64,000 nucleotides of DNA from Thermoanaerobaculales bacterium (GTDB lineage: Bacteria > Acidobacteriota > Thermoanaerobaculia > Thermoanaerobaculales > Sulfomarinibacteraceae). Below, one piece after another: positions 53,468 through 64,000 of the stretch. The notes beneath the pieces are model-generated. The model searched no databases. It had not been told where the DNA came from and saw only the letters and a list, made by a program, of their open reading frames with translations. Numbering within the stretch: the first letter of the stretch is position 1; each line of letters opens with the position of its first letter. Location: positions 1 to 64,000 of the forward strand of contig JALOLD010000004.1 in the NCBI GenBank assembly GCA_025456145.1. Direction: 5' to 3'. The position numbers and the translations under genes are program-made.

Positions 53468-55618
53468 ATGGTCCACAGCACGTTACGTGCAGGTGACGGG
53501 GAGGGCGGTCGCGGGGCGGTCCCCGGCGGGTCCGGCCCCGGGGCGCCGGACGCGGCCCGACGACGCGTCGTCGAGCTGGCTTCGGCCATCCTCGAGCGGT
53601 GCCGCGGCGAGGGCCCGTCGAACTGCGAGGCGCGCTGTCCGCTGCGGGTCGACGCCCACCTCTACGTCCAGCTCGCCCGAGCCGGCCGGTTTCGGGAGGC
53701 GTTGCAGACGGTCCGCGAGCGGCTGCCGTTCCCGGGGATTCTCGGCTATGTCTGCACCCACCCGTGCGAGCTCCACTGCAAGCGCCTCGAGCTCGACCGG
53801 GCGATCAGGATCCGCGACATCAAGCGGTTTCTCGCCGAGCACGAGCCAGGCGAGCCCGAGCACATTCTGACGACCGCGCCGCGCCGGCTGCAGCGAGCCG
53901 CCGTGGTCGGCGCGGGACCGGCCGGGTTGCTCGCCGCCCACGACCTCAGACGCCGGGGGTTCGAGGTCGTGCTGATGGAACGGTCCAACCGGATCGGCGG
54001 CTGTCTGACGACCAGGATCCCCGAGTGGCAGCTCCCGGCGGCGGTCCGCGAGCGCGATCTTTCGATCATCCCGGCGCTCGGGATCGAGGTCCGCACCGGC
54101 GTCGCCGTGGGCTCGGACGTCAGCCTCGACGAGCTGGCGTCCGACTTCGACGCGGTGCTGCTCACGGTCGGGTTCGCCGGCGGGCAGGGCCTGCTCCGGG
54201 AGGGGTCGAGCGGCCTCGGCTCGACGGTTCGCGGTACGGTGTGGGCCGATCCGTCGACCTGCTCGACCGGGATCGACGGCGTCTTCGCGGGCGGCGACGC
54301 GGTGAGCGGTCCGACCTCGGTGATCGATGCGCTGGCCTTCGGTCGGCGTGCCGCCGAGGCGGCGAGACGGTACCTGGAGGGCGTCCCCCTCGGGTCGGTC
54401 GCCGAGTCCGCCGACCCGCCGGAGCTGCTCTGGCAGCTCGGCATCGACGAAGCCGAGCGGCGCCGCCGCGAGCGGACCCCGGTGCTCCTCGCTCCGGCGG
54501 CCCCGCCGATGACCGAGAGGGAGGTCCGGGGCGAAGGCGAGCGGTGCCTCGACTGCAGCTGCGACCGGTGCGTCCGCGAGTGCGAGTTCCTGACCACCCA
54601 CTGCAGCTCGCCGCGCGATCTCGCCCGCCGACTGACCGCCGGGGTCGACGGCAACCTGCCGGTGGTCTACTCGTGCAACGTCTGCGGGCTGTGCGCCACG
54701 GTCTGCCCGGTCGACCTCGACACCGGGAAGCTCATGCTCGCCGCCCGCCGCGAGGCGGTCCGGCGGGGGCTGGCGCCGCTTCCCGAACATCGACAGGTGC
54801 GACGCGAGCTGCGGGCCGGGGTCTCGGCCGCCTTCTCGCTCGCCAAGGCGGCGCCCGGTCGCCGACGGGCGAAGCGGCTCTTCTTCACCGGTTGCGAGCT
54901 GCCCGCCACCTCGCCGGGGCAGACCCGCCGCCTGTACGCCCACCTGCTCGAGCAGGACCCGAGGATCGGCGTCCTGATGCACTGCTGCGGCGTACCGGCC
55001 GAGATCCTCGGTCTCGAGGACGACGCGTCTCGGGCCCGCGACGGGATCCGGGCCGCCATGGCCCAGCTCGAGGCCGACGAGCTGCTCGTCGCCTGCCCGC
55101 AGTGCCAGGAGGTGCTCCGCGAGCGGTTCACCGACATCCGGGTGAGCTCGGTCTGGGAGATGCTGGCCGAGACCTGGGATCCCGATCGCCGCTTCGACGA
55201 GCTGCGTCTCGCGGTCCACGACCCGTGCCGGAGCCGGCACGATCCGGAGGTTCACGCCGCGATCCGGACGCTGGTGCGGACCTGCGGCGTCGAGGTCGTC
55301 GAGACCGAGGCGTCGCACGAGCGGACCCGCTGCTGCGGCGCGGGAGGGAAGATCGAGGCGGTCGACTCCGATCTGTACTCGCGGGTCGCCGCCCGGGCCG
55401 CCGCCGAGACCGGTCTGACGATGATCACCTACTGCACCGGCTGCCGGAGCGCGCTTCGCGATGCCGGCCGGGACACCGTCCACATGCTCGACCTGCTGAT
55501 GACCGACGAGCCGTTCGCCCGGACGCTCGACGCCGAGCCGGGGATCGTCGCCCGCCTCGCCAACCGGCTCCGCGCGAAGTGGGAGCTGCGCCGGATGCCG
55601 CCCTCGGCCGGGGAGTGA
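53468..55618 (+). CDS. Fused Fe-S/FAD oxidoreductase with HdrC-like and HdrB-like (CCG) domains
   Basis: This is a 716-residue soluble multi-cofactor protein. Residues about 45-115 form a GltD/NfnB-type Fe-S domain (NCEARCPL, then YVCTHPCELHCKR). About 145-340 is an FAD domain (VVGAGPAGLLAA, later GVFAGGDAVSGP). About 355-420 is a ferredoxin-like pair of clusters (CLDCSCDRCVREC, CNVCGLCATVCP). About 470-690 holds two CCG units (TGCEL/HCCG/CPQC and DPCRS/RCCG/YCTGC), the ligands of the noncubane clusters of heterodisulfide reductase HdrB. The FAD domain lacks the inserted NAD(P)H-binding Rossmann subdomain of GltD. The gene heads an operon with NuoG/E/F-like genes, suggesting disulfide or other two-electron chemistry driven by that module. 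No Shine-Dalgarno is evident at ATG 53468. Confidence 0.85.
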   Translation: MVHSTLRAGDGEGGRGAVPGGSGPGAPDAARRRVVELASAILERCRGEGPSNCEARCPLRVDAHLYVQLARAGRFREALQTVRERLPFPGILGYVCTHPCELHCKRLELDRAIRIRDIKRFLAEHEPGEPEHILTTAPRRLQRAAVVGAGPAGLLAAHDLRRRGFEVVLMERSNRIGGCLTTRIPEWQLPAAVRERDLSIIPALGIEVRTGVAVGSDVSLDELASDFDAVLLTVGFAGGQGLLREGSSGLGSTVRGTVWADPSTCSTGIDGVFAGGDAVSGPTSVIDALAFGRRAAEAARRYLEGVPLGSVAESADPPELLWQLGIDEAERRRRERTPVLLAPAAPPMTEREVRGEGERCLDCSCDRCVRECEFLTTHCSSPRDLARRLTAGVDGNLPVVYSCNVCGLCATVCPVDLDTGKLMLAARREAVRRGLAPLPEHRQVRRELRAGVSAAFSLAKAAPGRRRAKRLFFTGCELPATSPGQTRRLYAHLLEQDPRIGVLMHCCGVPAEILGLEDDASRARDGIRAAMAQLEADELLVACPQCQEVLRERFTDIRVSSVWEMLAETWDPDRRFDELRLAVHDPCRSRHDPEVHAAIRTLVRTCGVEVVETEASHERTRCCGAGGKIEAVDSDLYSRVAARAAAETGLTMITYCTGCRSALRDAGRDTVHMLDLLMTDEPFARTLDAEPGIVARLANRLRAKWELRRMPPSAGE

Positions 55619-55625
55619 GCGGGCG

Positions 55626-58133
55626 ATGGACGCGCCAGCCGTCTCCCTCTCGGTCAACGGTCGGCCGGTGACGACCCCTCGCCACAGGCTCCTCCTCGAG
55701 GTGCTGCGCGAGCTCGGAGTGAGGGTACCGACCCTGTGCCACGACGATCGCCTGGCGCCGTATGGCGGCTGTCGCCTCTGTGTCGTCGAGCGCAAGGACG
55801 GCGCCGGCGGGTTGGTCCCCGCATGCTCGACGCCGGTGCAGGACGGGATGGTCATCGAGACCGACAGCCCGGCGGTGGTGGAGTCCCGGCAGCAGCAGCT
55901 CCAGCTGCTCGCGCTCAACCACCGGATGGACTGCCCGGTGTGCGAGCGCGGCTCGGACTGCCGGCTGCAGGATCTGATCCACGAGATCGGGATTCCCGAG
56001 GACACGCTGCCCTTCGACTTCGCGCCGGTTCCACGGGACGAGACCTCGCCGGTGATCATCCGTGACCCGTCGAGGTGTGTGGTGTGCGGCCGCTGTGTCC
56101 GGCTCTGCGAGGAGGTCCAGGGCGTCGCCGCCCTCGGATTCGTCGGGCGGGGTCTGACGACCCGGGTCGCCCCGTTCCTCGACCGTCCCCTCGACTGCGA
56201 GTTCTGCGGTCAGTGCGTCAACGCCTGCCCGGTCGGGGCGCTGGTGGCCCGACCGTACGCCTCGACGGTTCCGGCCTGGCAGCGTCTCAGGGTCAGGACG
56301 ACGTGCTCGTTCTGCGCCTGCGGCTGCGAGATCTCGGTGGAGACCCACAAGGGGCGGATGGAGCGGGTCACCGCCGACCCGCAGTCGCCGCACAACCGCG
56401 GCAAGCTGTGCGTCAGGGGTTGGCTCGGGCTCGACGTCGTCCACAGCCCGGAGCGTCTCCTCCGGCCGCTCGTCCGTCGCGGGGACGGGCTCGTCGAGGC
56501 CGACTGGAAAGAGGCGCTGGCGGTCGCCGCCGACGGCTTGCGACGGGCGGCGGGCCGTGGTCCGGTGGTCGCGGTGGGGGGCGGACGGTTGAGCTGCGAG
56601 GCCGGCTACCTGCTCCAGGCGCTCGCCCGGGAGGTGCTGCGGACCCCGCACGTCGACTGCGCCCCGGTCGGCGGCGCCGAGGCGCTGGTCGACGGCGTCT
56701 GGGAGGTCTTCGACCGGCCCCGATCGAGCGCCGGCTTCGACGACCTGCGAGCCGCGGACCTCGTCCTCGTCCTCGGCACCGATCCGACCCGCAGTCACCC
56801 CCTGGTCAAGACCGAGCTCGTCCAGGCGTCGATCCGGCGCTCGCTGCCGGTGGTCGTCGCGCTGCCGGTGGCGGGAGGCCTCGACCGTCACGCGGCGGAC
56901 ACCCTCCGGCTCGCCCCGGGTTCGGCCCACGACCTGCTGTGCGCCGTGGCGGCCCGGCTCCTCGAGAAGAACGACGGGCGGGCCGGCGGCGCCGAGGTGC
57001 TCCCGGGCTTCGAGGAGTGGCGACGGTCGATCGTGCGATTCTCCCCCGAGTCGGTGGTTCGGGCGACCGGTGTCTCGATCGCCCAGGTCGACCGGCTGGT
57101 TTCCAGGCTCGAAGGGGCCTGTCGACCGGTGATCGTTCTCGGCACCGGCTCCGGGGTGCCGGGGGACGAGGCCTCGGAGGCGCGGGCGGCGGCGTCGCTG
57201 GTCGCGGTGCTCGGGACCGGCGCCGGGCTGCTCGTGCTCGGTGGCCGGCCCAATGTCCAGGGGCTGGTCGATGTCGGCCTGCACCCGCGGCTGCTCCCCG
57301 GCCACCGGCGTGTCGAGCTGGCCGCCGAGGTCGAAGCTCTCACCGGCCGGGGGACCGTCGCCGAGGAAGGATGGAGCGTCGAGCGCTGGGTCGGGCAGCC
57401 GGTGGCGGCGTCGGGTCTGTTGCTGGTCGGCTTCGACCCGATCGATCTCATGCCGCGCGGCCGCGACCCCCGGCCGGCCCTCGACCGGGCCGGCTTCACG
57501 GTCGTCGTCGACGCCTTCCGGAGCCGCACCGCCGAGCGGGCGGACGTCGTCCTGCCGGCGGCGATTCTCGCCGAACGCGAAGGGACGACGGTCGGCGGCG
57601 ATGGAGTGCGCCGGCCGCTGCGGCGGGCCCTCGAGCCGCCGTCCGGCGCGTCGCCGGACACGACGATCCTGGTCGAGCTCGCCCGGCGGATGGGTGCGAG
57701 CCTCCCCTCCGGCCCGGAGCTCGACCGGGAGCTCGACCGGGTGGTCGGCTGGGGGTGGGGTCGTTCCCGGCCGCGCCGGCTGGCCCCCGCCTCCCAACCC
57801 CAGGCGGCCGCGGTCGCCACGGGCTTCGTGCTCGACGCGGCGCCCCAGCTCTTCCACTCGGGCTCGGTGACCATGCGCAGCACCCTTCTGCAGGAGCTGT
57901 CACCGACCGTCGCGCTGCGTCTCCACCCGGCGGATGCCCGCAGCCTCGGCGTGGCGCGGGGCGAGGTCGTCGCGATCGCGAGCCCGCGGGGCGAGGTCCT
58001 GCTGCGGGCCCGACCCGACCGGTCGGTGAGGCGGGGCACCGTCGTGGTGCCCTGGGCGGGCAGCCGTAACGGTGCGTCGAACCTCTTCGACGACGCTCAC
58101 GAGGCCTTGTCGGTCAAGGTGAGGAAGGCCTGA
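55626..58133 (+). CDS. NuoG-like Fe-S/molybdopterin-fold subunit
   Basis: The 835-residue protein has a [2Fe-2S] ferredoxin domain (YGGCRLCVVE, PACSTP) and the His-Cys3 cluster (HRMDCPVCERGSDC). Two [4Fe-4S] motifs follow (CVVCGRCVRLC, CEFCGQCVNAC), then a fifth cluster before the molybdopterin-oxidoreductase fold (CSFCACGC, then KLCVRGW). It finishes with a C-terminal molybdopterin-binding-like domain. Where formate dehydrogenases carry Cys or Sec, it reads HVDCAPVGGAEAL, without an equivalent ligand. It is therefore NuoG-like wiring rather than a formate dehydrogenase. It lies 7 bp after the Hdr-like fusion and 2 bp before the NuoE-like gene. It probably passes electrons between the NuoF-like subunit and the fusion. 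Confidence 0.88.
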   Translation: MDAPAVSLSVNGRPVTTPRHRLLLEVLRELGVRVPTLCHDDRLAPYGGCRLCVVERKDGAGGLVPACSTPVQDGMVIETDSPAVVESRQQQLQLLALNHRMDCPVCERGSDCRLQDLIHEIGIPEDTLPFDFAPVPRDETSPVIIRDPSRCVVCGRCVRLCEEVQGVAALGFVGRGLTTRVAPFLDRPLDCEFCGQCVNACPVGALVARPYASTVPAWQRLRVRTTCSFCACGCEISVETHKGRMERVTADPQSPHNRGKLCVRGWLGLDVVHSPERLLRPLVRRGDGLVEADWKEALAVAADGLRRAAGRGPVVAVGGGRLSCEAGYLLQALAREVLRTPHVDCAPVGGAEALVDGVWEVFDRPRSSAGFDDLRAADLVLVLGTDPTRSHPLVKTELVQASIRRSLPVVVALPVAGGLDRHAADTLRLAPGSAHDLLCAVAARLLEKNDGRAGGAEVLPGFEEWRRSIVRFSPESVVRATGVSIAQVDRLVSRLEGACRPVIVLGTGSGVPGDEASEARAAASLVAVLGTGAGLLVLGGRPNVQGLVDVGLHPRLLPGHRRVELAAEVEALTGRGTVAEEGWSVERWVGQPVAASGLLLVGFDPIDLMPRGRDPRPALDRAGFTVVVDAFRSRTAERADVVLPAAILAEREGTTVGGDGVRRPLRRALEPPSGASPDTTILVELARRMGASLPSGPELDRELDRVVGWGWGRSRPRRLAPASQPQAAAVATGFVLDAAPQLFHSGSVTMRSTLLQELSPTVALRLHPADARSLGVARGEVVAIASPRGEVLLRARPDRSVRRGTVVVPWAGSRNGASNLFDDAHEALSVKVRKA

Positions 58134-58135
58134 CG

Positions 58136-58702
58136 ATGGTCGACGAGCACGGCTGGACAGATGTCGCCGAGTCCGGGTTCTTCGGCGCCGAGGGGGGAGA
58201 CGGAGCGGACGCCCTCGACCCTGCGGTGGTGGCGCTGGTCGACGAGCTGGTGGCCGCCGCGCCGGCCGGTCGCGAAGGGCTGCTCCCCGTCCTGCTCGGC
58301 CTGCAGACCGCCTTCGACCGGGTCTCGTGGCGGGTCCAGGAGCTGGTTGCGGATCGCTTCGGCCTGTCGCCGGCGCAGGTCGCCGGGATGGTCAGCTTCT
58401 ACCCCGAGCTGAGCCCCGAACGGCGAGGTCGACTGAGGATCGGCGTGTGCGCCGGCACCGGGTGCTGGCTCGCCGGATCGGACGGGTTGCTCGACGAAGC
58501 GACCCGGCAGCTCCACACCGACCGGGCAGCGATCGGCGAGCCTCGTCTCGCGGTCGAACGACCGAGCTGCCTCGGGATCTGCGGTGTCGGACCGGCGGCC
58601 CTGACCGGCGAGCGGGCCCGGCCGGCGACGTCGCCCTCCGGCCTCGGCCGGCTGATCGCCGAGGCCCTCGCCGGGGTGCGGGGAGGAGGGGGCGACCGAT
58701 GA
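58136..58702 (+). CDS. NuoE-like [2Fe-2S] thioredoxin-fold subunit
   Basis: The 188-residue protein has the helical N-terminal part (LLPVLLGLQTAFDRVSW, VAGMVSFYPEL) and the thioredoxin-like [2Fe-2S] domain with all four ligands, in CAGTGC and SCLGIC. It matches the 24-kDa subunit of complex I and the equivalent subunit of NAD-linked hydrogenases and formate dehydrogenases. It ends by ATGA overlap with the NuoF-like gene. It should sit next to the NuoF-like flavin. Confidence 0.92.
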   Translation: MVDEHGWTDVAESGFFGAEGGDGADALDPAVVALVDELVAAAPAGREGLLPVLLGLQTAFDRVSWRVQELVADRFGLSPAQVAGMVSFYPELSPERRGRLRIGVCAGTGCWLAGSDGLLDEATRQLHTDRAAIGEPRLAVERPSCLGICGVGPAALTGERARPATSPSGLGRLIAEALAGVRGGGGDR

Positions 58703-60336
58703 GCCGCGGGCCCGCGGCGCTGATGGAGATCGGAATCTGCAGCGGCAGCGGCTGTCTGGCCCTCGGCGCGCTCGAGGTCTTGGAGGCGACCCGGGAGGCC
58801 GCCGCCCGCTCGGGGCTCGAGGTCATGGTCGCCGCCCGACCCGGGCTCGTCGGCTGCCGGGGCTTCTGCAGCCAGGGCCCGCTGGTTGCCATTCCGGCGA
58901 AGGACCTGCTCTACTGCAGGGTCTCACCCGGCGATGTCGCCGAGATCCTCGAGCGGACCGTCGGACGGGGAGAGGTCGTCGAGCGTCTGCTCTATCTCGA
59001 CCCGGTGAGCGGGAGACGTTGCCGCGGGGTGGCGGACAACCCGTTCTTCGCCCCCCAGAAGCGTCGGGTGCTCGCCCGCTGCGGCGTGGTCGACCCGGAG
59101 GACATCGGGCATGCCATGGCGCACGGCGCCTACCGCGCCCTCGTGCGGGCCCTCGGCGAGATCGGCCCGGCGGCGATCGTCGAGCGGGTCAAGCGGTCGG
59201 GTCTCCAGGAGCGGGCGGGGGCGGGGTTCCCGGTTGGCCTCAAGTGGGCGGTCGTGGCCGAGTCGCAGGCCGACGAGAAGGTGGTGATCGGCAACGGCGA
59301 CAGCGGCGACCCGGGGCTGACCGTCGACCGGACGCTGCTCGAAGGCGATCCGCACGGCGTCATCGAGGGACTCGTCATCGCGGGCCTCGCGGTCGGCGCG
59401 CGCACCGGCCGGCTGTTCCTGCGTTCCGAGCACCGCGTCGGGGTGGCCCGCGTCGAGCGAGCGGTGGTCGAGGCGCGGCGGAGGGGTTTTGTCGGCCCGG
59501 CGGTACTCGGGAGCGACTTCTCGTTCGACATCCAGATCCACACCAACGGCGGGGCCTCGAGCGGCGGCGAGGAGACGGTGCTGCTGAGTGCCCTTCATGG
59601 CCGACGCGCGGTCGCGAGGCCGAGACCCCCGTACCCGGCGGTGAGCGGGCTGTGGGGGCGGCCGACCCTCATCAACTGCCTCGAGACCCTCGCGAACATT
59701 CCGCTGATCGTCGGTGACGGCGTGGCCGGCGACGACCAACCGCCCGCTCTGACCCGGGTGGTCGGGCTGTCGGGCGGGGTGAGGCGGCCGGGCCTCGCCG
59801 AGGTCGGCCCTGACGTCACGGTGAACGAGCTCGTCGCCGGGATCGGCGGCGGTGCGGTCGACGGCGAGATCACGGCCGTGCACGTCGGCGGCCCGGGTGG
59901 GGCGACCCTCGGTCCGGAGCAGCTCGACGCTCCGCTCGACTCGCGGACGCCGAGCGAGCATGGCGCCATCCTGGGCTCGGCGAGCCTCGTCGTGTTGGGG
60001 CGGAGGGACTGCCCTGTCGCGGTGGCGAGGTTCCTGGTCGGGACCTGCGCCGATCAGAGCTGCGGCGCCTGTCCGCCGTGTCGGATCGGCACCAAGGTCG
60101 TGCTCAGCCTGCTCGACCGCGTCGAGACGGGGGCCGCGGACCCGGCCGATCTGGAGCGGCTCGAGCGTCTCGGTCGGCACATCGGTCGGACCGCGATGTG
60201 CGAGATCGGACGCAACGCGTCGCGCACCCTGATCGCGAGCCTCGGGAATCTGCGGGGTTGCTATGAGGCCCATCTCGGCGGGGTCGGCTGTCGGAGCGAG
60301 CTCACGCGCCCTCGGACGGGCCAACCGCGCCGATGA
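58699..60336 (+). CDS. NuoF-like flavoprotein with altered FMN/NADH site
   Basis: The 545-residue protein has an N-terminal thioredoxin-like [2Fe-2S] domain (CSGSGC, GCRGFC). The NuoF body follows, with FMN-loop AGAGFPVGLKW, an SLBB-type domain (about 370-430) and the [4Fe-4S] motif SCGACPPCR with its fourth Cys in AMCEIG. Several normally invariant residues differ. The usual GRGGAGF reads ERAGAGF, NADEGEPG reads NGDSGDPG, and the AYICGEET loop reads ASSGGEET. The NADH specificity is thus in doubt. It is the last gene of the tightly packed operon and overlaps the NuoE-like stop. Confidence 0.87.
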   Translation: MSRGPAALMEIGICSGSGCLALGALEVLEATREAAARSGLEVMVAARPGLVGCRGFCSQGPLVAIPAKDLLYCRVSPGDVAEILERTVGRGEVVERLLYLDPVSGRRCRGVADNPFFAPQKRRVLARCGVVDPEDIGHAMAHGAYRALVRALGEIGPAAIVERVKRSGLQERAGAGFPVGLKWAVVAESQADEKVVIGNGDSGDPGLTVDRTLLEGDPHGVIEGLVIAGLAVGARTGRLFLRSEHRVGVARVERAVVEARRRGFVGPAVLGSDFSFDIQIHTNGGASSGGEETVLLSALHGRRAVARPRPPYPAVSGLWGRPTLINCLETLANIPLIVGDGVAGDDQPPALTRVVGLSGGVRRPGLAEVGPDVTVNELVAGIGGGAVDGEITAVHVGGPGGATLGPEQLDAPLDSRTPSEHGAILGSASLVVLGRRDCPVAVARFLVGTCADQSCGACPPCRIGTKVVLSLLDRVETGAADPADLERLERLGRHIGRTAMCEIGRNASRTLIASLGNLRGCYEAHLGGVGCRSELTRPRTGQPRR

Positions 60337-60395: not shown

Positions 60396-60495
60396 CGGGG
60401 GGGCCGGCGAGGGGCGGGCCCGGTCGGCGACCGGCCGTGGCCTTACGGTGCGGGGCCGGCCGGAAGGGGGCGGTGAGGCGGTGCGAAGGAGGCCG

Positions 60496-60882
60496 ATGAT
60501 CCTGCTCGCGGATGACGACCCGGTCTTCCTCGAGTCGGTGGCGGCGGTCCTGCGACCGCGCTACGACGTCCGGACCGTGGCGAACGGCCGCGAGGCGCTG
60601 ATCGCCGTCGACGACGACCCCCCGGATCTCGTCATTCTCGACGTCATGATGGACCACATGTCGGAGGGGTTCGACGTCGCCCGGACGCTGCGCAGCGCCG
60701 AGGAGACGTCGCTCATTCCGATCATCATCCTGACCGGGGTGGACCGGGTCTACAACGTCAGGATGGAGGTCGACGAGTCGTGGATTCCCGCCGATCACTA
60801 CCTCGGCAAGCCGGTCGCCCCCGACGAGCTGCTCCGGAAGGTCGCCGCCCTCGTCGGACCGGGCGCAGCCGGCTCGCCATGA
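60496..60882 (+). CDS. Single-domain response regulator
   Basis: The 128-residue receiver domain has ADDDP at the acidic pocket, phospho-Asp in LVILDVMMDH, and Thr and Lys in ILTGVD and YLGKPV. It carries an insert (VYNVRMEVDESWIPADHY) before the Lys strand. This insert is of a kind I associate with receivers encoded beside Hdr and hydrogenase operons in sulfate-reducing bacteria; that association is from memory. It has no output domain. AGGAGG lies directly before ATG 60496, and it overlaps the kinase gene by ATGA. It probably signals from or to the electron-transfer complex. Confidence 0.88.
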   Translation: MILLADDDPVFLESVAAVLRPRYDVRTVANGREALIAVDDDPPDLVILDVMMDHMSEGFDVARTLRSAEETSLIPIIILTGVDRVYNVRMEVDESWIPADHYLGKPVAPDELLRKVAALVGPGAAGSP

Positions 60883-62342
60883 TTCGGACGGAACCGACCC
60901 CTCGGCGACCCGGCGACGCCGGCCGTGGTCGTGAGACCGGCCAGGGGCCGGTCGGGGATGACGGCCGCGACCACACCAGCTATCTCTTCTCCTGGGAGCT
61001 GCACGGACGCCTGCTGTGGTTTGCCAATCTCCGATGGGCGGCGGTGGTCGGCCTCGCGGCGGCTGCGCTCGCCGGGCCCGCGGTCGGCATGCCGTCGACC
61101 AACCCGAGCCTGGCGGTGGTCGCCGCGCTGGTCGCGGTCTACAACCTCGGCTTCATCTACCTGCTCCGCTACCGCCTCGGGCCCGAGAGCGCCTACGGCG
61201 ACCTGCGGACGGCGGCGATCCTGCAGATGGTCACCGATCTCGCGGCGCTGTTCGTCACCGTCCACTTCACCGGCGGGTGCGCCAGCCCGGTGCTTCCGTT
61301 CGTCGTCTTCCACATGGCGATCGGCACCATCATGATCGAGACCAGGAGCATGTACCTGCTCGCCTGCGCGGCCTGCGGTGCTGCGGCCGGGCTGTTCGTC
61401 CTCGAGCACCTCGGCGTGCTCGTGCGCTACCCGTCGGCGGCCGGTGGGGTCTCGACGGTGGCGACCTGCGGGCTGTCGACCGCGATGCTGGTCGGGCTGG
61501 TGTTCGGCGTCGTCTATCTCACCGACTCGGTGACCAGCCGGTTCAAGGCTCGCAACGTCGAGCTCCACCAGATCACCACCGAGCTCCAGCGATCCCTCGC
61601 CGAGCGCGAGGCGGTCGAACGTCGGAAGTCGCACTACATGAGGATCTCCGCCCACCAGCTGAGGTCGCCGCTGGGGACGATCAAGACCTCGATCCAGGTG
61701 CTGCTCGACGGCTACCTCGACCCGGGCTCGGCCGAGGGGCGCCGGCTGCTCGAGGGCACGGCCGCCCGCGTCGACTCGCTGCTCGCCATCGTCAACGACC
61801 TCCTCGAGCTCGCCAAGATGCGCGAAGGGAGAGTCAAGGCGCCGTGGGCGAGGAACGTCAGCGTCAACCAGATCCTCGCCGACATCTTCGACGCCCAGGA
61901 CACCTTCGCCAGCGAGGCCGGCGTCGAGCTCGTGCCGCGCTTCATCCAGGAGGGCGCGGCGGTGCTCGACTGGGCGGTGCCCCCCGACCTGGTCTACGCC
62001 TTCGAGAACCTCATCCACAACGCGATCAAGTACTCCAAGCCGGGCGGCGGGACCGTGACCGTCGGTCTCGCCGTCGACCACGAGCGGGCGACGGTGGTCG
62101 TCGCCGACCAGGGCATCGGCATCCCCGACGGTCTCCACGAGGACGTGTTCTTGGAGTTCGTCAGAGCGCCGAACGCCAAGCACGCCGCGGCCGAGGGGAC
62201 CGGTCTCGGGCTGTCGATCGCGCGGGAGGCGGTCGCCATGCACGGCGGTGAGATCGTGCTCCAAAGCGCCGAGGGGGTCGGCACGACCGTCACCGTGGTG
62301 CTGCCCCTGCATCGCGTGCCGCCCGAGCTGTCGGCGCCCTGA
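60879..62342 (+). CDS. Membrane histidine kinase
   Basis: In this 487-residue protein a 40-residue soluble N-terminus leads to six predicted transmembrane helices (about 50-225). A short coiled coil follows, then the dimerisation/phospho-acceptor domain with the His in SAHQLRSPLG. The HATPase_c domain (NAIKYSKPGG, DQGIGIP, GTGLGLSI) completes it. There is almost no periplasmic loop, so it likely senses membrane state, quinone or proton-motive force. It is coupled to the receiver gene before it; no DNA-binding partner is encoded here. Confidence 0.92.
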   Translation: MIRTEPTPRRPGDAGRGRETGQGPVGDDGRDHTSYLFSWELHGRLLWFANLRWAAVVGLAAAALAGPAVGMPSTNPSLAVVAALVAVYNLGFIYLLRYRLGPESAYGDLRTAAILQMVTDLAALFVTVHFTGGCASPVLPFVVFHMAIGTIMIETRSMYLLACAACGAAAGLFVLEHLGVLVRYPSAAGGVSTVATCGLSTAMLVGLVFGVVYLTDSVTSRFKARNVELHQITTELQRSLAEREAVERRKSHYMRISAHQLRSPLGTIKTSIQVLLDGYLDPGSAEGRRLLEGTAARVDSLLAIVNDLLELAKMREGRVKAPWARNVSVNQILADIFDAQDTFASEAGVELVPRFIQEGAAVLDWAVPPDLVYAFENLIHNAIKYSKPGGGTVTVGLAVDHERATVVVADQGIGIPDGLHEDVFLEFVRAPNAKHAAAEGTGLGLSIAREAVAMHGGEIVLQSAEGVGTTVTVVLPLHRVPPELSAP

Positions 62343-62804
62343 CCCGGTCATCGGGGGAGGCCGGCCGACCGGGTGAGTGACAATCTCAGGATCGAGGTCG
62401 GGCACACGCGAGCCGTCACCGGCCGGTAACGTCGTCGCGCCGGCGTCGTCGCCGGAAGGCCATCGTGGGGCGGTCACGATCGGCAGGGTCGGCGGCGCCG
62501 CGATCCCAGCCCGTTGTGGGCTCGCGACTTGGTCGACCCCTCCGTGGTCGCCCCGGTCGGGTCGGCGGGAGAACGCCGAGTGAAACGCTCAGGAATGGCA
62601 ATTGCTGCAACCACGACAGATGCGGGTTTGACGACCGGCGACCGCGGCGCCCGGGGGCGCGGTTCGATGAAGCCGATTGACCGGTCCGGGCGGGCCGGCA
62701 GGCGTTCGGGGTTCGGGGTCTTTCATCTAGATCGCGGTCGTGGATAAAATGTCGCATGACGGAGCTCCGAACCGGGTGTTCCGTAGTACGATGAAGAGGT
62801 GCTA
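62343..62804. other. 462-bp intergenic region, no gene seen
   Basis: An 8-bp inverted repeat (62342-62349 with 62367-62374, ACCCGGTC) lies at the kinase stop, without a U tail. Short open frames occur, but none has a ribosome site or protein-like composition. Towards the right end the GC content falls. -10-like boxes TAAAAT (62745-62750) and TACGAT (62787-62792) precede the cytochrome gene, the second 12 nt before ATG 62805; neither has a clear -35. Confidence 0.6.
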
Positions 62805-63740
62805 ATGATGACTACTCTCGCTTATGTCGTGGCCTATGTCGGGGTCGTGTTTTTCGTCATCGCGTGCGTCGCCCGGTTCGTGATGTGGTCGAAGATGCCG
62901 ATGCACATGCGCTGGGAGCTCTACCCGGTGGCCCACGAGGGCGGCGGCAAGGCCGCCTACGGCGGCTCCTATCTCGAGGACACCGAGTGGTGGACCAAGA
63001 AGCGCGAGGTCTCGCTGATCGGCGAGCTCAAGGTCATGGTGCCCGAGATCCTCTTTCTGGTCGCGCTGCGCGAGCACAACCGGAAGCTCTGGACGCGCTC
63101 CTTCCCGTTCCACTTCGGGCTCTACCTGGTCGGCGGGGCAACCGCGCTGCTGCTGCTCGGCGGCGTCGTGGCCGGTTTTCTGCCGGAGGCGATCAGCCAA
63201 CCGGCCGAGAGGCTGATCGGGCTTCTCGCGCCGGCCCTCGGCGGGGCCGGTCTGATCCTCGGTATCGTCGGGGCGATCGGGCTGCTCCTGCGCCGGCGGA
63301 GCCGTGCGCTGCGCGACTACACCGCGCCGGCCGATCTCTTCAACCTGCTCTTCTTCGTCGTCGCATTCGGCGTCGCGGCGGCGACCTGGCTGCTCTACGA
63401 CCGTGACTTCTCGATGGTCGGAGCCTTCGTCGCCAACCTCGTGACCTTCAACCTCGCGGCGGTGGGAGACGGCACGGCCGGCCTGATGCTCGTTCTGTCG
63501 GTGGTGCTCCTCGCCCTGCTCGTGGCCTACATCCCGACGACCCACATGTCGCACTTCATCGGCAAGTACTTCGCCTACCACTCGATCAGGTGGAAGGACG
63601 ACCCGAATCTCCCCGGCGGCGAGCAGGAGAAGGTGATCGAGGAGCTCCTGTCCCGACCGGTGAGCTGGTCGGCGCCCCACATCGGCGCCGACGGCAAGAA
63701 GAGCTGGCTCGACGTCACCCTGGAGGACCAGAGCAAATGA
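62805..63740 (+). CDS. NarI/TmcC-like membrane cytochrome b subunit
   Basis: The 311-residue protein has five to six transmembrane helices. The segment MRWELYPVAHEGGGKAAYGGSYLED lies after helix 1, a layout I know from the NarI-like cytochrome subunits of Tmc, Hmc and Dsr complexes. His residues in SFPFHFGLYL and THMSHFIGKYFAYH are candidate haem b ligands. It should exchange electrons with the quinone pool on behalf of the HdrD-like protein encoded next. AAGAGG precedes ATG 62805 (ATGATG). The stop overlaps the next start (ATGA). Confidence 0.82.
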   Translation: MMTTLAYVVAYVGVVFFVIACVARFVMWSKMPMHMRWELYPVAHEGGGKAAYGGSYLEDTEWWTKKREVSLIGELKVMVPEILFLVALREHNRKLWTRSFPFHFGLYLVGGATALLLLGGVVAGFLPEAISQPAERLIGLLAPALGGAGLILGIVGAIGLLLRRRSRALRDYTAPADLFNLLFFVVAFGVAAATWLLYDRDFSMVGAFVANLVTFNLAAVGDGTAGLMLVLSVVLLALLVAYIPTTHMSHFIGKYFAYHSIRWKDDPNLPGGEQEKVIEELLSRPVSWSAPHIGADGKKSWLDVTLEDQSK

Positions 63741-64000
63741 AACAGCCCGACAGCGTCAAGGACATGGGGCGGCACCCTGGTCAGCCTCTCGCCCACATCA
63801 ACCCCCTCGAGCAGATCCCGCTGCCGCCGCCCTTCGACAAGATCGACGAGGAGCCCAAGTTCGCCCAGCTCTCGGAGGCCGCGCGCGAGAAGTACGTCGT
63901 GCTCGACGACACCATCGCGGTCAACATCGAGAAGCCGAAGACCAAGGAGGACGAGGACCGGCTGGTCAACGGCTTCCTCAGCGGTCTCGAGAAGCTGTTC
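63737..64000 (+). CDS. HdrD/TmcB-like Fe-S protein, N-terminal part only
   Basis: Only the first 88 residues lie inside the window: MKQPDSVKDMGRHPGQPLAH, then NPLEQIPLPPPFDKIDEE and later VNGFLSGLEKLF. This lead-in resembles TmcB/HdrD-type proteins that later carry ferredoxin and CCG domains; none of those motifs is reached before the window ends. The 4-bp overlap with the cytochrome gene supports a two-subunit membrane complex. The assignment rests on the short N-terminal pattern and on context. Confidence 0.6.
   Translation, partial: MKQPDSVKDMGRHPGQPLAHINPLEQIPLPPPFDKIDEEPKFAQLSEAAREKYVVLDDTIAVNIEKPKTKEDEDRLVNGFLSGLEKLF

Follow-up and report, generated by a model that had tools for sequence, protein, structure and literature searches.

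Analysis of a 64,000-nucleotide stretch of DNA from a Thermoanaerobaculales bacterium of the phylum Acidobacteriota (assembly GCA_025456145.1, contig JALOLD010000004.1, positions 1 to 64,000; hereafter the window) identified a four-gene operon encoding a GltD/HdrC/HdrB-like fusion protein (FUS) and NuoG-, NuoE-, and NuoF-like subunits. We propose, with modest confidence from motifs, domains, and gene context, that the four proteins form a soluble complex that reduces a disulfide, a persulfide, or the DsrC trisulfide with NADH, supplemented in relatives by ferredoxin. A previous reading of the window made without database searches (the sequence-only reading) had described four tightly packed genes and a single chain joining GltD-like Fe-S/FAD, HdrC-like, and double CCG parts. 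The former was borne out by open reading frame (ORF) calls, with gaps of 7, 2, and −4 bp between FUS, nuoG, nuoE, and nuoF, and the latter by Pfam. The genes and domains of the operon are as follows.

53468..55618, + strand: FUS, GltD (minus NAD(P)H domain)-HdrC-HdrB-like flavoprotein of 716 amino acids (ORF; Pfam; NF045663, 506.5 bits; closest structures 9bov_A, 8oh5_C, and 9n5u_A)
53594..53845, + strand: FUS Fer4_20 (GltD/DPD-type double Fe-S) domain, residues 43–126 (Pfam)
53885..54385, + strand: FUS FAD Rossmann domain, residues 136–289, NAD(P)H-binding insert absent (Pfam; alignment to StnC)
54542..54721, + strand: FUS HdrC-like double [4Fe-4S] domain, residues 359–418 (Fer4_17 in Pfam; conserved Cys motifs)
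54875..55126, + strand: FUS CCG domain 1, C-x29-CC-x35-CxxC (motif)
55211..55456, + strand: FUS CCG domain 2, C-x34-CC-x32-CxxC (PF02754; motif; weak similarity in sequence to HdrB from Hdr complexes of known structure)
55626..58133, + strand: NuoG/BfuA-like subunit of 835 amino acids, with NuoG-type Fe-S motifs and a molybdopterin-oxidoreductase fold without catalytic Cys/Sec (Pfam; NCBIfam; alignment)
58136..58702, + strand: NuoE/BfuC-like subunit of 188 amino acids, with one [2Fe-2S] (Pfam; NCBIfam)
58699..60336, + strand: NuoF/BfuB-like subunit of 545 amino acids, with FMN, B1 cluster, and N-terminal [2Fe-2S] motifs and NGDSGDPG in place of NxDEGDPG (motifs)

To map the distribution of the operon, 84,980 species genomes were scanned for exact peptides, an approach sensitive to close relatives only. 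The scan returned 11 FUS loci, every one from Acidobacteriota, plus one chance actinobacterial match. A long FUS of the window type was found in 9 of the 396 Acidobacteriota genomes searched, including the window's own. After duplicate removal (L022/L067 and L028/L070 are the same genomes by identical coordinates and were counted once), there were 18 distinct acidobacterial loci. FUS directly preceded nuoG in all 18, and the complete order FUS-nuoG-nuoE-nuoF was present in 11, the remainder being reduced or interrupted by contig ends. Because of this invariant adjacency and the recurrence of the full order, the arrangement is not due to chance, and the order pointed out in the sequence-only reading is widespread, not confined to the window genome. 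That reading had also proposed comparing the phylogenies of the CCG fusion and of NuoEFG; the FUS, NuoG, and NuoF trees contained the same well-supported groups, with no supported conflict. Its pairing of an Hdr-type flavoprotein (HdrC plus double CCG) with a NuoEFG-like module is thus upheld by the domains, the gene order, and the trees. Since NuoF is reduced or missing in some loci (L069 and L074) while FUS and NuoG stay, the FUS–NuoG pair is the invariant core, the conserved heart of the putative complex, and the NADH/ferredoxin input its variable part. Beyond Acidobacteriota, the distribution was assessed by the exact-peptide scan, in which almost all matches were from this phylum, and by a plasmid search, which yielded FUS homologues of about 33% identity in Fusobacteriota; distant occurrences elsewhere are possible.

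The N-terminal half of FUS was nearest to the GltD domains of the Nfn-ABC and StnABC transhydrogenases in both sequence and fold searches. The invariant Lys119 of FUS corresponds in the alignment to Lys170 of StnC, which serves there as an unusual cluster ligand (position counted by hand). The FUS–StnC alignment skips about 145 StnC residues between FUS residues 249 and 252, and these residues correspond to the NAD(P)H-binding Rossmann domain; comparison with DsrL and with the fusobacterial homologues showed the same deletion, which the sequence-only reading had not mentioned. FUS therefore binds FAD, but probably not NAD(P)H. The two [4Fe-4S] motifs of the HdrC type are present in the window FUS and complete in nearly all members. 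Both five-Cys CCG motifs, of the HdrB type that holds non-cubane clusters, are complete in the window FUS and in 15 of 16 proteins, CCG1 being altered in L069. CCG sites are the catalytic centers of HdrB. The NAD(P)H domain is still present in the fusobacterial homologues, which lack NuoEFG neighbors. In another acidobacterial family, proteins matching NF045663 lack the NAD(P)H domain, yet have no Nuo neighbor, so the loss of this domain does not appear to be strictly tied to the gain of a Nuo module. Residue 179 of FUS (window 54002-54004) is an invariant Cys in a GG-C-L motif by the FAD loop, where GltD and StnC have GGML; it is a possible flavin-proximal thiol.

The remaining three subunits are homologous to BfuA (NuoG-like), BfuC (NuoE-like), and BfuB (NuoF-like) of the Bfu family, which includes HydABC-type enzymes (Schut et al. 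2022, PMC9304861). Pfam detected Fer2_4, NADH-G_4Fe-4S_3, Fer4_Nqo3, Molybdop_Fe4S4, Molybdopterin, and Molydop_binding in the NuoG-like subunit, 2Fe-2S_thioredx in the NuoE-like subunit, and Complex1_51K and NADH_4Fe-4S in the NuoF-like subunit, together with a weak N-terminal 2Fe-2S thioredoxin-like match in the last. The NuoF profile scored 874 and 871 bits against HydB/NiFe-Bfu subunits and 452 bits against complex I Nqo1. A C-terminal ferredoxin domain and the B2 ligands C438, H525, C531, and C536 (NiFe-Bfu numbering) define the bifurcating Bfu core (PMC9304861). NuoF of 8 of 11 relatives carries the C-terminal double [4Fe-4S] ferredoxin domain together with the B2-cluster ligands, which are complete in the relatives with an intact NuoF, and most relatives keep every tested BfuB-core motif (N-terminal [2Fe-2S], FMN, B1, B2 ligands, and ferredoxin domain). 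These motifs and scores indicate that the operon's NuoEFG is by descent an electron-bifurcating Bfu (HydABC/Stn) core and not a generic Nuo module.

In the window genus, this core is eroded. The ferredoxin domain, which would hold the B3/B4 clusters, is absent from NuoF of the window, L026, L068, and L069. The window NuoF keeps the equivalents of C438, H525, and C531 at the B2 site and lacks that of C536; its FMN/NADH core, B1 [4Fe-4S], and N-terminal [2Fe-2S] motifs are present, apart from the Glu of NxDEGDPG, which is substituted in L026 and L068, the two nearest relatives, and in the window, where it is Ser. Bfu homologues without B2–B5 are described as NADH-oxidizing and as not interacting with ferredoxin (PMC9304861). 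Given the loss of the ferredoxin domain and the incomplete B2 site, the electron confurcation considered in the sequence-only reading is unlikely in this genome. The acceptor may be of comparatively high potential; NADH would then be sufficient by itself, in keeping with the lost ferredoxin site. Reduction has gone further in G223 (L074), where the region from NuoE to the regulator yielded no NuoF, and in G356 (L069), whose NuoF lacks FMN/NADH motifs. In the latter (L069 10954-12555), a divergent NuoE-like stretch runs in frame into this NuoF, and FUS and NuoG are kept beside DsrMK and dsrA.

The sequences show how the genes are ordered, which domains and cofactor motifs they encode, that the NAD(P)H domain has been lost and the Mo-site Cys is missing, and that the set is conserved and co-occurs with dsrA and with genes for DsrC and rhodaneses. 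From this we infer how the subunits might assemble, in which direction electrons might flow, and which reaction on which sulfur substrate might result. Electrons from NADH would enter at the FMN of the NuoF-like subunit, and in most relatives reduced ferredoxin would probably provide a second entry through the Bfu-type ferredoxin domain lost in the window genus. They would pass along the NuoE, NuoF, and NuoG clusters to the Fe-S clusters and FAD of FUS, and from the FAD through the HdrC-type clusters to the two CCG sites with their predicted non-cubane clusters. There, a sulfur–sulfur bond would be reduced: that of a thiol disulfide, a rhodanese-delivered persulfide (in relatives), or the DsrC trisulfide formed by dissimilatory sulfite reductase. 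The Bfu/Nuo module would thereby serve as the electron input in place of the lost NAD(P)H binding of the GltD-derived domain. NADH-linked Hdr complexes have been proposed as donors to DsrC (PMC6470260), and the FUS-NuoEFG complex could be among the missing electron donors for sulfate/sulfite reduction.

The genomic context, outside the coordinates covered by the sequence-only reading, gives the strongest functional clue, a link to dissimilatory sulfur metabolism and rhodaneses. The operon lies about 18 kb from dsrAB in the window genome, and a dsr/tmc sulfur-respiration cluster, not noticed in the sequence-only reading, starts at the window end. On the same contig, a second DsrMK-like pair, TmcD, TmcB, and an HmcB-like gene are followed by dsrAB, DsrL, a dsrN-like gene, dsrMKP, and dsrC; aprA is on a different contig. 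Among the 396 Acidobacteriota genomes, where the background frequency of dsrA was 8%, dsrA was found in 7 of 9 genomes with FUS and 25 of 387 without it (Fisher P 3.8e-7), and within the window's own order the counts were 6/0/1/4 (one-sided P 0.015), both statistics ignoring relatedness among genomes. With the loci from named genomes added, dsrA was present in 15 of 18 distinct FUS genomes. Two of those lacking dsrA, G303 (84% complete) and G403, carry dsrC and a dsrC fragment, respectively. The DsrD model gave no match anywhere, controls included.

A response regulator and a histidine kinase are encoded downstream of the operon across loci. In eight loci, a tandem rhodanese gene comes after the histidine kinase, and in six of the eight the next gene encodes a VTT membrane protein, the sequence ending first in the other two. 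Rhodanese and VTT genes also flank the fusobacterial FUS homologues. One protein there, on an Ilyobacter polytropus plasmid (L097:11594-13141), joins two rhodanese domains and a VTT membrane domain, and the neighboring FUS homologue keeps its NAD(P)H domain. The neighbors of the operon within the window are as follows.

60448..60882, + strand: response regulator, conserved directly downstream of the operon (Pfam; synteny)
60780..62342, + strand: histidine kinase with uncertain start codon, conserved as neighbor of the regulator (Pfam; synteny)
62799..63740, + strand: DsrM/NarI-like membrane cytochrome b, first gene of the second DsrMK-like pair (NCBIfam; Pfam; operon-linked also in L019, L066, L068, and L069)
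63590..64000, + strand: start of a DsrK-like CCG protein that runs past the window (contig C1:63590-65341), start codon uncertain (NF045796 DsrK, 328.6 bits on L006:10590-12341)

From 62799-64000 of the window onward (L006:9799-19069), this second DsrMK-like pair and the TmcD, TmcB, and HmcB-like genes form a set distinct from the canonical dsrMKP near dsrAB.

Several observations weigh against an NADH-dependent sulfur reductase tied to the Dsr pathway. Both dsrA and dsrC are missing from one FUS genome, G082 (94% complete). In the sample, 25 of 32 dsrA-positive Acidobacteriota lack FUS; since most such genomes do without it, FUS is not essential to the pathway. DsrL-2 and DsrMKJOP, the usual electron donors, are also encoded in the window genome. 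No adjacent rhodanese/VTT pair was found in the window's genus, and CCG domains are also part of enzymes that use other acceptors, as in quinone, lactate, and glycerol-phosphate systems. Because NuoF is absent in G223, lacks the motifs in G356, and has Ser for the NADH-motif Glu in the window, NADH cannot serve as donor in every locus, and its role is uncertain in the window genome. The AlphaFold model of FUS, built from a 10-row alignment, had a mean predicted local distance difference test score of 61 and was weak in the Fe-S domains, its FAD and CCG parts being usable.

The alternative that survives best, which we still regard as unlikely, is that the four proteins are the soluble arm of a membrane chain carrying electrons between NADH and the adjacent DsrMK-like cytochrome b/CCG pair, and hence menaquinone, instead of acting on a soluble sulfur substrate. 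In the window genome, L068, L066, L019, and L069, the operon is followed by a DsrM-like gene and, if the contig extends far enough, a DsrK-like gene, in L069 directly after NuoF, and CCG proteins commonly partner such cytochromes, as in HdrDE, TmcBC, and DsrMK. However, CCG and Fe-S domains are already present in the DsrK-like protein itself, and the operon occurs with no DsrM-like gene in the available sequence of L020, L023, L025, L065, and L070.

It is quite improbable that the substrate is selenium or another oxyanion or organothiol species and not a Dsr intermediate, which would make FUS a generic sulfane/selenane reductase. Related NF045663 proteins do have a C_GCAxxG_C_C redox protein as a neighbor, joined in L060 by a molybdenum hydroxylase, and the fusobacterial homologues stand among rhodanese, VTT, and ABC genes with no dsr nearby; the acidobacterial FUS genomes, however, are strongly enriched for dsrA, usually with dsrC. 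Literature searches on NF045663 and on TVP38 with rhodanese and selenium returned nothing.

Electron bifurcation within the complex was also considered. In relatives with an intact NuoF, the Bfu FMN core could merge electrons from NADH and ferredoxin, and the FAD of FUS could split them between the CCG sulfur acceptor and a second partner. We consider this scheme a long shot; if true, two electron-splitting modules would be joined in a bifurcation-driven sulfur reductase serving dissimilatory sulfite reduction. The sequence-only reading had suggested that NuoEFG takes the place of Flx or Mvh beside an all-in-one Hdr; on this view, a complete HdrABC would bifurcate or confurcate electrons at an HdrA-type flavin. 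One chain does hold HdrC and HdrB parts and a flavin beside an NADH module; nevertheless, this proposal is very unlikely, as FUS contains no HdrA bifurcating FAD subunit with Fe-S insertions, its flavin domain is of the GltD/StnC type, the StnC flavin is reported to be non-bifurcating (PMC10482914), and the residue matching the N5-proximal Arg239 of StnC is Gln in the window (position counted by hand). We therefore rejected the all-in-one HdrABC identity; the GltD-like part resembles StnC/NfnABC minus the NAD(P)H domain. The remaining possibility, an ordinary complex I arm or a degraded NAD-dependent formate dehydrogenase beside an unrelated flavoprotein by chance, is hardly credible: the NuoG-like protein scores well with both NuoG and Fdh-alpha models, but the genome has a separate complex I gene set elsewhere (C125) that includes its own NuoF and NuoG, the NCBIfam scores are below the complex I cut-offs (319.8 vs 470 for NuoG-like, 309 vs 559 for NuoF-like), every aligned NuoG-like member has CAPVGG where formate dehydrogenases have CARVCH or CSRYCQ, and the pairing with FUS is conserved in every locus. 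Both identities were rejected on these grounds, and the absence of an H-cluster and of a formate dehydrogenase active-site Cys/Sec stated in the sequence-only reading was confirmed.

The NADH-dependent sulfur reductase proposed here can be compared with described systems. StnABC/Nfn-ABC (PMC10482914; PDB 8oh5, 9bov, and 9n5u) gave the top sequence and fold matches for FUS and likewise places a GltD-like Fe-S/FAD domain, with the shared Lys cluster ligand, beside a NuoG-like chain on a NuoEF-type core; FUS differs in having lost the NADPH domain, gained HdrC/HdrB parts, and being separate from NuoG. The Bam-Bfu complex of class II benzoyl-CoA reductase (BamGHI; PMC9304861) also joins an Hdr-type module to a NuoEFG-like Bfu module, but it has HdrA and a tungstopterin subunit, both missing from the present operon, and no GltD-HdrB fusion. 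Unlike FlxABCD-HdrABC, the operon has neither Flx nor HdrA, and NADH would enter through NuoEF/Bfu. DsrL-2 resembles FUS in being an iron-sulfur flavoprotein of the GltD type with a link to dsr genes. In DsrL, however, the NAD(P)H domain is retained, ferredoxin-type clusters are present at the C-terminus, and CCG domains are missing; the genome's own DsrL is at C1:81542-83284 beside dsrAB, so a DsrL identity for FUS was rejected. The best NCBIfam model for FUS, NF045663 ("diclust_near_Sec"), scored below its curated cut-off of 530; its proteins share the Fer4_20-FAD-Fe-S-CCG order at about 30% identity, but have a C-terminal extension, other neighbors, and no NuoG/E/F match in the loci examined. 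One of them, in acidobacterial family f39 (L060 3208-9092), is encoded between a molybdenum hydroxylase and a C_GCAxxG_C_C redox protein.

The sequence-only reading had called the complex possibly undescribed. The pairing of Hdr with NuoEFG has precedents in Bam-Bfu and in the nuoEFG-mvhD-hdrA clusters of Desulfotignum phosphitoxidans (PMC4046663), whereas no description of the fusion-based FUS-NuoEFG complex was found in the literature searched. Three aspects are new: a Bfu-derived complex with a GltD(minus NAD(P)H)-HdrC-HdrB fusion as the putative third-substrate module, the conservation of this complex across the phylum, and its association with dissimilatory sulfur metabolism. In the modular Bfu family, 17 of 57 clades still await assignment of a third substrate (PMC9304861); the FUS set would tie one Bfu module to a specific and testable one, sulfur. 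According to a survey of genomes that carry dsrAB, DsrAB receives its reducing equivalents from DsrL or a yet unknown oxidoreductase (PMC10591310), and an NADH-linked CCG complex that co-occurs with dsrA is a direct candidate for feeding this pathway. A single phylum would also display the deletion of an NAD(P)H domain with a separate NADH module as the new input, followed by loss of the ferredoxin site.

Two further genes or gene sets were observed. A small Cys-rich protein (CxxCxxF...LSSxYGSTRGRAGxC), not found before FUS in the window, is encoded directly before FUS in L019, L021, L023, L024, L025, and L066. At 150-157 kb of contig C1 of the window genome (G000; L016:5075-10635), VorB/PorB-like 2-oxoacid oxidoreductase genes are directly followed by BfuC, BfuB with a ferredoxin domain, and a short BfuA, constituting a second Bfu-type set.

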